Assembly: GCF_003261175.1 (NCBI RefSeq)
Contig: NZ_QLNP01000017.1
Span: forward strand, 89,829-153,828
Reading direction: 5' to 3'
Length of the DNA: 64,000 nucleotides
Source of the DNA: Arthrobacter globiformis
GTDB taxonomy: Bacteria > Actinomycetota > Actinomycetes > Actinomycetales > Micrococcaceae
Shown: positions 8,963 through 12,410 of the stretch, in pieces
Layout of the letters: every line of letters starts with the position of its first letter
Numbering within the stretch: position 1 is the stretch's first letter
Program-made: the position numbers and the translations under genes
The notes under the pieces: generated by a model
The model's database searches: none
What the model saw: the letters and a program-made list of their open reading frames with translations, nothing else
What the model was told of the DNA's origin: nothing

Positions 8963-9285
8963 CTTCTTGATCTGGCTCTTCCGGGCCGGCGGTTTCTTAC
9001 TTATGGTGGCGGGCCGTGAACTTGGGTTGCGCTGCACGTCCCTTCGTTTCCGGCGTCCTTGAAATCGCAGGTGCGGCACGGTTGAGTGGGTGGACCAGCA
9101 GGGTTTACCCAGGGTTTACACAGCCGGTCTTTCGGCTTCACAAACGCTGGGCAGACTCTAATAACACCGATGAACCGACCAAGCCCTGTCGGTTCAGCAC
9201 CCCACCCAAGGACAGACGCACCGATGCGTTCGGGGCCGCGGCCGCGAAGACGCTGCGTGCAGCCTCCCTGACCGGAAGGACCGCC
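8963..9285. other. Intergenic stretch with a small hairpin
   Basis: No convincing gene is present in these 323 bases. There are two GGGTTTAC(C/A) copies near 9100-9117, and an inverted repeat TGAACCGAC (9171-9179) / GTCGGTTCA (9188-9196) about 90 nt before the DUF1508 start. It is probably a promoter and leader region. Confidence 0.4.
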
Positions 9286-9669
9286 ATGGCCGGAATATTC
9301 GAAGTTTTTGTTGACGCAGAGTCCCAGTTCCGGTTCCGGCTGAAGGCCCCCGACGGATCCGTGCTGGCCATCTCCGCACCCTTCGAGGACAAGCGCGCGG
9401 CTGCGGCCGGCATCGCTGACGTCCGCGAATGCGCCGGGACTGGGCTCATCACGGACCTCTCCCCGGCTGCAGCTCCGGTGACAGAGTCCGCTCCGGTTCA
9501 GCCGGCCGTTTCGACCCCCGCGCCGGTTCCCGCCCAGGCCCTCCCGGGGTGGCCGGACCACCGCAGGCAGGGTTTCGGCAAAAAGCGCACCCCGTCGGAG
9601 GCTTCCGGTTCGCCGCTGTGCCGGCCGGCGGCCCCGGCAGAGCCGGCCCGGTGGACCGGGGCCGCTTAG
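9286..9669 (+). CDS. DUF1508 (YegP-like) domain protein
   Basis: This 127-residue protein has an N-terminal DUF1508 unit: AGIFEVFVDAESQFRFRLKA, then DGSVLAISAPFEDKRAAAAGI, then ending in TGLITDL at about residue 60. The family (E. coli YegP) is a small beta-alpha fold of unknown function that usually occurs as one or two copies. Here one copy is followed by a proline/alanine-rich, probably disordered tail. Start ATG 9286 has GGAAGGA about 8 nt upstream. The frame is open further upstream but lacks a ribosome site. It is followed by an iron-box-controlled gene that has its own promoter. Confidence 0.72.
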   Translation: MAGIFEVFVDAESQFRFRLKAPDGSVLAISAPFEDKRAAAAGIADVRECAGTGLITDLSPAAAPVTESAPVQPAVSTPAPVPAQALPGWPDHRRQGFGKKRTPSEASGSPLCRPAAPAEPARWTGAA

Positions 9670-9820: not shown

Positions 9821-9839
9821 TTAGGCAAGCCTTAACTAA
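9821..9839 (+). promoter_or_regulatory. IdeR/DtxR-type iron box
   Basis: The 19 bases TTAGGCAAGCCTTAACTAA match the DtxR/IdeR consensus (TTAGGTTAGSCTAACCTAA) at 15 of 19 positions by eye. A TAATAT -10-like hexamer (9837-9842) overlaps its right edge, and the GTG start of the next gene is at 9852. An iron-loaded repressor bound here would block that promoter, so the downstream gene is predicted to switch on under iron limitation. Confidence 0.75.
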
Positions 9840-9851
9840 TATCCTCTTCCG

Positions 9852-12410
9852 GTGACCACGCAGCTTGATTTCGCGCGGGTGCCCTTCGCCGCCGATCTGG
9901 CCGGCCACGGGGACAGGCCCGCCGTTATTTCCGACAATTTCACTCTCACCTACCGGGACCTGGTGCGCAGGGTTGATGCGCTCGCCCTCCGGCTGGGCAC
10001 GCAGCGGCGCCTCGTGGCACTGGCTGCAGCGAACGACGTCGACTCGCTGGTCGCCTATCTCGCCGCCCTGGTCGGCGGCCACCCGCTGATCCTGCTGCCG
10101 GAGGACAAGCCGGCGGCACTCGAGTCCCTGGTGGCCGCGTACGACCCGGATGTCGTGCTGCGCTCCGCCAACGGGGAGACCGTGTTTGAGGAGCGCAGGC
10201 CCGGAACCAGGCACGAACTCCATCCGGACCTCGCACTGCTGCTCAGCACGTCCGGTTCCACGGGTTCGCCCAAGCTGGTGCGCCTGTCCTCCGCCAACCT
10301 GCAGGCCAATGCGGAGTCGATTGCCGAGTACCTGGACATCGGCCCGGCAGACCGCGCCGCAACCACTCTGCCGGTGTCCTACTGCTACGGGCTATCCGTA
10401 ATCAACAGCCACCTGCTGCGCGGTGCAGGCCTGGTGCTCACGGACCTGTCCGTTGTTGACCCGTGCTTCTGGGAGCTTTTCCGTACCGGCGGGGCGACGT
10501 CGTTCGCGGCGGTGCCGTACACCTTCGAACTGCTGGAGCGGGTGGGCTTTGCCGATATGGACCTCCCCAGCCTGCGCTATGTCACGCAGGCGGGAGGCCG
10601 GCTTGCCCCCGAACGAGTGCAGAGCTACGCCGAACTCGGCCGGCGGAAGGGCTGGGAGCTGTTCGTGATGTACGGCCAGACTGAGGCCACCGCCCGGATG
10701 GCCTACCTTCCGCCCGCGCTGGCCGCCGAGCACCCCGGCGCCGTCGGCATCCCGGTGCCGGGTGGCGCCTTCCGCATCGAGCCGGTTGACGGCCTCGAGG
10801 ACGGCGAACTCGTCTACACCGGGCCCAATGTCATGCTCGGCTACGCCGAGACACCGGAAGATCTCGGCGCCGGCCGCACGGTCCACGAACTCCGCACCGG
10901 CGATCTGGCCCGGAAACACCCCGCGGGCGTCTATGAAGTGGTCGGGCGGCGCAGCCGGTTCGTCAAGATCGTTGGCCTCCGGGTCGACCTCGGCCAGGTG
11001 GAGCGCATCCTGGGCGATCTCGGCGTCGAAGCGGCGAGTGCCGGAACCGACCAGGGACTCGTGGTCGCCGTCGAGGGCAGCCACGACACCCAGCTGCTGT
11101 CCAAGGTCCTTGCCCAGGGCATCGGGCTGCCGCGTGCGGCCCTGGAGCTGCACGCCGTCGAGCATCTCCCCCGCCTGGCCACCGGAAAGGTGGACTACCC
11201 GGCGGTCCTGGCGCTCTCAACACCAGCGCTCTCTGAGACGGCGCCGGCCGGTGCCGGGGCGGACGGCTCCGGGACGGACCGCTCAGGACCGGACAACGTG
11301 CGGCGGATCTTCCGGGACACCCTGGAGCGCACCGACATCGGAGACAGCGACACGTTCGTTTCGCTCGGCGGCGACTCGCTGTCATACGTGGCCACTTCCG
11401 TACGCCTGGAGCAGCTGCTGGGGCACCTCCCGCCGAACTGGCATGTGACGCCGGTCCGCGACCTGGAACAGCGCACGGACCGGAAAACTGGCGGAACGAT
11501 GCGGCGGTTCTTTGCCCCGGTCGAGACCAGCATCGTGCTGAGGGCGGTGGCGATTGTGCTCATCGTCGGTACCCACGTGGGGCTGATGAAATGGCCGGGC
11601 ATGGCCCATGTGCTCATGGCGGTGGCCGGCTACAACTTTGCCCGGTTCCAGCTCAGCGGGGAACGGCGTCCCCGGTTCAGGCGGCAGCTCACCAGCGTCG
11701 CCAGGGTGGCGCTGCCCAGCATGGCGTTCATCGGAGTGGCCTACCTGATCACCGACCGGTATACGCTGGCCAATGTCCTGCTCCTGAACTCCATCGTCGG
11801 GCCGGAAGCTGTGACCACGGAGTGGCACTTCTGGTTCATCGAGGTGCTGGTCTACATCCTCCTGGGCATGACGGCCCTGCTGGCCATACCCTGGGCGGAA
11901 CGGGCGGAGCGGCGGTTCCCGCTGCTCTTTCCGCTTGCCCTTACGGGCCTCGCGCTGCTCGCGCGCTACGACATCGTGGATCCGGGTGTACCCCACCCGT
12001 CGCCGACCCTGTGGCTGTTCGTCCTGGGTTGGGCCGTTGCCCGGACCCGGACGGTGGTTCAGCGGTGCGCGGTGTCAGTCCTCGCGATCCTCACGGTGCC
12101 CGGGTGCTTCTTCGGGGATACGAACCGTGAGCTGACTCTTGTTGCCGGAATCCTGCTGCTCACCTGGCTGCCCACCCTTCCCGTGCCCAGGGGGCTGCAG
12201 CGCCTGACAGTGCTCCTGGCCAGCGCCTCCCTCTACGCGTACCTGGTGCACTGGCTGGTCTACCCGCTGCTGGCCGCAACCAGCCCGGTCCTTGCCGTGG
12301 CGGCGTCCCTGGCGGCCGGCGTGTCCTACTGGGCGCTATGCACTCGGGTCATGGGCCTGTTGAGCCGGAGTGGCTGGCGGCCGTTCCGCGGAAGGCTCAA
12401 GCAGCCGTAA
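9852..12410 (+). CDS. Adenylation domain + carrier domain + membrane acyltransferase fusion (iron-box controlled)
   Basis: This 852-residue protein has three parts. Residues 1-455 are an acyl/amino-acid adenylation domain: P-loop STSGSTGSPK (132-141), VMYGQTEAT (272-280), RTGD (348-351), GRRSRFVKIVGLRVD (365-379), and the catalytic lysine K446 in ATGKVDY. Residues about 480-540 are a peptidyl/acyl carrier domain with phosphopantetheine serine S509 in LGGDSL. Residues about 556-852 are a multi-helix acyltransferase-3 (OafA-like) membrane domain, with the family histidine H575 in IVLIVGTHVGL and WHFWFIEVLVY. In principle it could activate an acid, hold it as a thioester, and transfer it at the membrane. 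The upstream iron box suggests siderophore modification or an iron-limitation envelope change. No NRPS genes lie nearby. It ends 2 bases before the convergent racemase-like gene. Confidence 0.85.
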   Translation: MTTQLDFARVPFAADLAGHGDRPAVISDNFTLTYRDLVRRVDALALRLGTQRRLVALAAANDVDSLVAYLAALVGGHPLILLPEDKPAALESLVAAYDPDVVLRSANGETVFEERRPGTRHELHPDLALLLSTSGSTGSPKLVRLSSANLQANAESIAEYLDIGPADRAATTLPVSYCYGLSVINSHLLRGAGLVLTDLSVVDPCFWELFRTGGATSFAAVPYTFELLERVGFADMDLPSLRYVTQAGGRLAPERVQSYAELGRRKGWELFVMYGQTEATARMAYLPPALAAEHPGAVGIPVPGGAFRIEPVDGLEDGELVYTGPNVMLGYAETPEDLGAGRTVHELRTGDLARKHPAGVYEVVGRRSRFVKIVGLRVDLGQVERILGDLGVEAASAGTDQGLVVAVEGSHDTQLLSKVLAQGIGLPRAALELHAVEHLPRLATGKVDYPAVLALSTPALSETAPAGAGADGSGTDRSGPDNVRRIFRDTLERTDIGDSDTFVSLGGDSLSYVATSVRLEQLLGHLPPNWHVTPVRDLEQRTDRKTGGTMRRFFAPVETSIVLRAVAIVLIVGTHVGLMKWPGMAHVLMAVAGYNFARFQLSGERRPRFRRQLTSVARVALPSMAFIGVAYLITDRYTLANVLLLNSIVGPEAVTTEWHFWFIEVLVYILLGMTALLAIPWAERAERRFPLLFPLALTGLALLARYDIVDPGVPHPSPTLWLFVLGWAVARTRTVVQRCAVSVLAILTVPGCFFGDTNRELTLVAGILLLTWLPTLPVPRGLQRLTVLLASASLYAYLVHWLVYPLLAATSPVLAVAASLAAGVSYWALCTRVMGLLSRSGWRPFRGRLKQP

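Follow-up and report, generated by a model that had tools for sequence, protein, structure and literature searches.

We suggest that a gene at positions 9852 to 12410 of a 64-kb window from Arthrobacter globiformis (the window being the whole stretch of DNA analysed here) encodes a protein that probably contributes to iron acquisition by a route so far undescribed. In this 852-residue protein, an adenylation (A) domain, a carrier (T) domain and a membrane acyltransferase domain of the acyltransferase-3 (AT3)/TmAT superfamily follow one another in a single chain, and the gene lies directly behind a putative iron box. The reading that we favor, and to which we give a fair degree of confidence, is that, as part of the response to iron starvation, this one enzyme both activates an acyl group and exports it. 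The features concerned are the following.

9821 to 9839, no strand assigned: IdeR/DtxR-type iron box TTAGGCAAGCCTTAACTAA, matching the published consensus at 17 of 19 positions
9837 to 9842, plus strand: -10-like element TAATAT, overlapping the 3' end of the box; probable promoter, as judged from sequence, of a leaderless transcript
9852 to 12410, plus strand: gene for the A-carrier-AT3 membrane acyltransferase protein, an open reading frame (ORF) with a GTG start, encoding 852 residues
9891 to 11216, plus strand: adenylation domain, residues 14-455, with the catalytic Lys446 at 11187-11189 and pocket residues C178, Y179 and R282
11298 to 11423, plus strand: carrier (PP-binding) domain by Pfam, residues 483-524, with the phosphopantetheine Ser509 at 11376-11378
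11499 to 12407, plus strand: AT3/TmAT membrane acyltransferase domain, residues 550-852, with R564-x10-H575 at 11541-11576

The original prediction had described an 852-residue protein with an A domain (K446), a carrier domain (S509) and an acyltransferase-3 domain (H575), and the Pfam profiles and conserved residues bear this out. All three profiles score above their curated cut-offs and in that order: AMP-binding (PF00501) at residues 14-331 (E 9.3e-44, 150 bits against a cut-off of 29.9), PP-binding (PF00550) at residues 483-524 (E 1.4e-5, 25.7 bits against 20.8), which secures the carrier domain on which the prediction hinged, and Acyl_transf_3 (PF01757) at residues 562-814 (E 2.9e-8), the last narrowly so with 33.6 bits against 31. 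With the first profile and a C-terminal catalytic Lys, the protein classes as an ANL adenylation enzyme, and with the second profile and the phosphopantetheine Ser in GGDSL as a carrier protein. Pfam finds no other domain in the chain; there is no condensation domain, which a modular nonribosomal peptide synthetase (NRPS) would have, no thioesterase or reductase domain, and no MBOAT domain, which the DltB of a Dlt system would have. Without exception, the 101 actinobacterial proteins compared, that of the window among them, and all seven alphaproteobacterial homologues have K446, S509, R564 and H575. From a scan of named genomes, the best 80 of 397 loci encoding a relative were kept; each of these matches begins at residue 19 or before and extends at least to residue 807. 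Genes were called at 114 loci in total, of which four lacked a called target (L053, L147, L154 and L156; at least L147 is a miss of the gene caller, since the search saw a stop-free open frame there, in G168), leaving 110 loci; nine of these are non-actinobacterial and were counted apart. Two of the 101 remaining proteins, those of L078 and L105, are identical.

The iron box TTAGGCAAGCCTTAACTAA has two mismatches to the published IdeR consensus TWAGGTWAGSCTWACCTWA, for which up to five mismatches serve as the regulon criterion (PMC9505556). It is the best site in the window, the next best being a 14/19 match in an overlapping register. The window's genome encodes two DtxR-family regulators with Fe_dep_repr_C above its cut-off, so that a box within five mismatches and a regulator of this family, which together define an IdeR/DtxR regulon at the level of sequence, are both present. 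The original prediction had scored the box at 15 of 19; the box stands, while the score becomes 14 of 19 against a strict consensus and 17 of 19 against the published one. TAATAT runs into the end of the box and the GTG start comes 9 nt after it, so that the transcript probably has little or no leader. In the aligned DNA of near relatives, the same succession of box, TAATA(T/A) and start codon is seen.

Sites of this quality are rare. The 4.88-Mb genome holds four distinct sites with at most three mismatches, against one for a reversed control pattern. Two of the four have two mismatches, namely the box at 9821 and a site upstream of an SfuA/FbpA-type ferric importer operon elsewhere in the genome, the binding protein of which matches 1xvy with E 1.1e-140. 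The other two have three mismatches; one lies between genes for a Peripla_BP_2 protein and an MFS protein, and the other (G000:C67:100647, L165:5148) beside unnamed ORFs of 431 and 632 aa without a match in NCBIfam or Pfam. Among five further genomes or records searched at no more than two mismatches, G351 and G352 have two sites each, and in each pair one is, by sequence, that of the target gene or its operon. Across the orthologues, a box with at most five mismatches lies no more than 200 nt upstream of the gene at 77 of 101 loci, or at 92 if the starts of co-directional upstream genes are counted, compared with 16 of 1,620 upstream regions of other genes (drawn from all 110 loci, minus the genes of the target's operon and labelled importer genes) and 75 of 10,100 shuffled target upstreams. 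The like-for-like figure is 77, because with operon starts counted, more regions are examined for each target than for each control. At 51 of these 77 loci the box is at -30 to -33. With the strict consensus, the corresponding counts are 72 and 86 of 101, against 1.1% of 1,673 controls. The genome-wide rarity and the difference between orthologues and controls lead us to reject a chance box, although a looser pattern with one mismatch did no better than its reversed control, and iron control of the gene is strongly supported by these sequence comparisons.

The genes around the orthologues point in the same direction. At 38 of the 101 loci, an Fe(III) importer is encoded within four genes of the target: a FutA-type ABC importer at 20, an FbpA-type ABC importer at 13 and EfeO-EfeB at 5. 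These labels were assigned by BLAST to representatives, and two FutA-type loci (L064 and L092) without a called FutA were counted via their permease and ATPase. Compared with solved structures, the representative binding proteins match ferric-binding proteins with E 1.9e-85 and 2.4e-88; EfeO and EfeB of L026 score above their NCBIfam cut-offs, and the other four EfeO-EfeB loci were assigned by BLAST. The record annotation agrees with the linkage in Rhodococcus opacus B4, R. fascians D188, R. gordoniae and Mycolicibacterium chubuense. The importer genes lie upstream, downstream or divergently. On a tree of 107 proteins (built by a quick method, with some long branches unsure, and with L092, L124 and L130 left out), 10 changes are needed for the neighbourhood label, 4 for FutA-type and 5 for FbpA-type linkage alone, the starred branches forcing 3 and 4 of these, respectively; importer linkage, as reconstructed from these sequences, is found on several branches. 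Co-occurrence with FutA at the level of whole genomes is weak: 3 of 59 genomes have a FutA of more than 50% identity (G025, G045 and G051), all three with the target, and the window's genome has none at this threshold. Pfam scans of 20 proteins encoded beside orthologues, EfeO and EfeB of L026 among them, brought out no other shared pathway. Together with the rarity and conservation of the box, importer linkage gives strong support to the iron connection, which the original prediction had drawn from the box.

The type of importer also bears on whether the enzyme might acylate an existing siderophore, such as desferrioxamine, during its export. The gene is iron-boxed, as such a tailoring enzyme might be, and an NRPS-independent siderophore (NIS) synthetase (PF04183) is encoded in the window's genome at C32:122909. 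However, most of the linked importers are of free-Fe(III) rather than siderophore types, and in 37 genomes of the genus, tallied by hand with G030 (which has a copy in pieces with a stop) scored as target-bearing, 13 have both target and PF04183, 11 the target alone, 6 PF04183 alone and 7 neither. With no association between the two, we regard siderophore tailoring as very improbable, and a role of the target as a replacement for an NIS siderophore was rejected on the same tally.

What might be activated is indicated by the A-domain pocket. In amino-acid-activating A domains, an Asp at the GrsA 235 position binds the alpha-amino group. In alignments read by eye, C178 (Cys in 98 of 101 proteins, Ser in 3) aligns with this Asp in the first A domain of LgrA, and G180, two residues over, with that of the second. 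No Asp, such as an amino-acid-activating A domain would have, is found at residues 178-180, 182 or 183 in any of the 101 proteins, and because of this lack the acid adenylated is probably a carboxylic acid other than an alpha-amino acid. R282 is invariant, also in two stand-alone A-domain relatives, and could suit a second carboxylate or a hydroxyl of the acid. The pocket gives no support to D-Ala as substrate, nor to the aryl acids dihydroxybenzoate (DHB) and salicylate; the A domain lacks the aryl-acid pocket pattern of DHB enzymes.

The two stand-alone relatives share with the 852-residue protein the motifs Y(C/S)YGxSV and YG(Q/A)TEAx(A/P)R, and both are encoded in polysaccharide-type clusters with glycosyltransferase genes, in Deinococcus together with an annotated acyl carrier protein and in Rhizobium beringeri with an unnamed 80-aa protein beside the ligase. 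The best NCBIfam match of the protein is TIGR03098, the exosortase-associated acyl ligases, with 142 bits against a cut-off of 592; neither these nor the stand-alone ligases are fused to a carrier and an AT3 domain, and no iron box was found upstream of the stand-alone ligases L124 and L130. The cluster on R. beringeri pRlX1 (L130, 1-17239) also has acyl-CoA reductase, FabZ and acyltransferase genes, with a TonB siderophore receptor gene about 3 kb and FhuB about 6 kb away, and is possibly another iron-linked acylation cluster.

These relatives lend weight to what is the main rival, namely that during iron starvation the enzyme remodels the envelope by acylating a cell-wall glycan, a teichoic acid or a lipid head group, changing charge or permeability with a product that does not bind iron. 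Most of the AT3 proteins covered by the review PMC9558356 act on surface carbohydrates, and the alphaproteobacterial homologues have no annotated iron context. By contrast, iron control by itself would not lead one to expect importer linkage to recur in differing gene orders and in several parts of the tree, and we consider remodelling without iron binding unlikely, if the least unlikely of the rivals.

The AT3 domain itself deviates from the superfamily in two motifs. AT3 proteins have an absolutely conserved R-x10-H in transmembrane helix (TMH) 1 and a highly conserved RxxR in TMH3 (PMC9833829), and FxxxxG and SxxxY also take part in the superfamily's CoA site (PMC12423673); RxxR and FxxxxG count as highly conserved, and neither source calls them absolute. 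R564-x10-H575 is present in all 101 proteins, and of the SxxxY of TMH9, S793 is present in 100 and Y797 in 99 (one row being a gap). The Phe of FxxxxG in TMH2 is missing, position 588 being Leu in 101 of 101, as is the first Arg of RxxR, position 615 being S/G/T/A/V in 101 of 101, with R618 kept in 94. Among the five other AT3 proteins of the window's genome, aligned by eye, four have the first Arg of RxxR and all five the Phe of FxxxxG. Another AT3 protein of this genome (L162, G000:C51:29796-30914) carries an N-terminal part of about 450 residues. A structural aligner found the AT3 part to fold like the acyl-CoA transferases HGSNAT and GWT1, while Foldseek alone gave no significant PDB match for the domain (best E 0.83). 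We assign the domain to AT3/TmAT because the absolute motif R-x10-H in TMH1, the profile and the 10-helix fold agree, and treat the losses in RxxR and FxxxxG as exceptions within the superfamily. The pattern, in which cytosolic contacts for CoA would be lost and the contact at the thiol end kept, is suggestive of a carrier-bound donor.

Alternatively, the AT3 domain could use ordinary acyl-CoA, with the A-T part serving another step and the fusion merely bringing the two together. The AT3/TmAT proteins discussed in PMC9833829 and PMC12423673 do use acyl-CoA. However, S509, K446 and the Arg and His of the AT3 domain are conserved together in all 101 actinobacterial and all seven alphaproteobacterial proteins, and the chain has no condensation, thioesterase or reductase domain that might accept the acyl group instead; to this alternative we give the least weight of all.

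Comparison with known systems makes the arrangement clearer. In the Dlt system, an acid is adenylated by DltA, held on the carrier DltC and brought across the membrane by way of an integral acyltransferase, DltB. The original prediction had likened the order of the domains to Dlt, and this holds as a logic; it is an analogy only, because DltB is an MBOAT protein and the transferase here is AT3/TmAT. Moreover, the functions here lie in one chain, the Asp for an alpha-amino acid is lacking, which makes an alpha-amino acid such as D-Ala unlikely as substrate, and there is iron control and importer linkage. With OafA/OafB and HGSNAT, the protein shares R-x10-H in TMH1, SxxxY in TMH9 and the fold, and differs in having its own adenylation and carrier domains and in the loss of the first Arg of RxxR and of the Phe of FxxxxG; Pfam also finds no SGNH domain in the chain. 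NRPS-like A-T siderophore enzymes of the EntE-EntB and VibE-VibB type likewise combine A-T loading with iron control, but here a membrane acyltransferase takes the place of the condensation domain.

In the mechanism that we propose, the repressor of the IdeR/DtxR type would leave the box at 9821 when iron is scarce, and the leaderless mRNA would be made. The A domain would then adenylate a carboxylic acid other than an alpha-amino acid and load it on the phosphopantetheine arm of the adjoining carrier domain, two steps for which the conserved domains and motifs speak. By analogy with known AT3 proteins, the arm would next enter the AT3 domain through its cytosolic opening, substituting for acyl-CoA, and the acyl group would be passed by R564-x10-H575 to an acceptor beyond the membrane. 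The resulting product, which could be a small chelator or else a glycan or lipid of the envelope in acylated form, would bind Fe(III) or help to release it, for which the evidence is box conservation and importer linkage; finally, ABC importers of the FbpA/FutA/SfuA type or EfeUOB would take up the Fe(III). The scheme of the original prediction, in which an acid is activated, held as a thioester and moved by a membrane transferase under iron control, thereby gains support from the co-conserved domains and residues, the box and the importer operons, all of which are established by comparing sequences. More tentatively, we propose as a possibility, rather than as an expectation, that this is a metallophore pathway of a single enzyme, distinct from both modular NRPS and NIS, in which an iron-regulated membrane protein would make an acyl-based ferric ligand and deliver it outside, either released or as an envelope-fixed iron trap, to feed FbpA/FutA-type importers.

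Several observations weigh against an iron-gathering role. The pocket that the protein has in common with the stand-alone ligases of polysaccharide clusters suggests a common acid and not a dedicated metal ligand. The window's copy and 62 other loci of the 101 have no iron importer within four genes. Nine of the 101 loci have no site within five mismatches even with operon starts counted, three of the five further genomes or records (G350, W01 and W02) have none within two mismatches, and a looser box pattern with one mismatch allowed finds seven matches in the window's genome and also seven for its reversed control. None of the nine non-actinobacterial loci, the seven alphaproteobacterial homologues included, has an IdeR-type box, and no gene annotated for iron transport lies near those seven in the stretches fetched, for which the plasmid gene tables are incomplete; the chemistry itself may for these reasons not be iron-specific. 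Upstream of the alphaproteobacterial homologues, the iron motif TGA-N9-TCA occurs at -63 in two rhizobial loci (L101 and L122) and at -207 in L127, and in none of the four others.

The distribution of the gene is patchy: in a draw of 296 genomes of the phylum, matches at E<=1e-50 are found in 16, of which the window's genome is one. It is found in Arthrobacter and its kin, Kocuria, Sinomonas, Actinotalea, Micromonospora, Streptomyces, Rhodococcus and Mycolicibacterium, also on plasmids, and homologues that are 35-38% identical across 80-98% of the query lie on plasmids of Rhizobium, Phyllobacterium, Paracoccus, Leisingera and a further Rhizobiaceae strain. The phage records gave no match to the protein. 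One copy (G009:C57:7531-9952) is split over two frames beside two intact copies, and another (G030:C1:2992581-2995078) is in pieces with a stop, which suggests that the gene is sometimes lost. Because the plasmid copies L103, L104, L105 and L128 lie among genes for cation/cadmium transport, ArsR-type or winged-helix regulators and signal peptidase II, the trait may travel with metal resistance. On two Leisingera plasmids (L121 and L127), the homologue is about 6 kb from genes annotated as a zinc ABC transporter and a 'transcriptional repressor'. In the window, the gene is flanked upstream by one for O-succinylhomoserine sulfhydrylase and downstream by a convergent gene for an Asp/Glu racemase-family protein; the target and the sulfhydrylase gene have between them an ORF (9016-9669) with a DUF1508 domain (9313-9450, plus strand, E 9.6e-10). 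None of the seven neighbouring proteins scanned belongs to an NRPS or siderophore pathway, in line with what had been predicted.

Each of the three domains is already known. An A-T-AT3 chain in an iron regulon is not named among the matches listed when the full text of open papers was searched, most subscription journals lying outside this coverage, and as far as the literature was searched, the combination is the new element. In the main text of the AT3 papers PMC9833829 and PMC12423673, the term "carrier protein" is absent, and it occurs twice in that of PMC9558356. If our reading is correct, this would, within the same limits, be the first AT3 protein known to receive its acyl group from a tethered carrier and not from CoA, and the family lends itself to finding out whether AT3 membrane acyltransferases are able to accept acyl groups from a carrier protein.

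Importers of the FbpA/FutA type, which bind Fe(III), are widespread, and to our knowledge it is unclear by which route ferric iron reaches them in Gram-positive soil bacteria. If the proposal holds, these importers, otherwise thought to take bare Fe(III), would be fed by an acyl-based ferric ligand, and the question would have a direct answer of compact chemistry in a single gene that accompanies one importer or another and is carried by plasmids as well.
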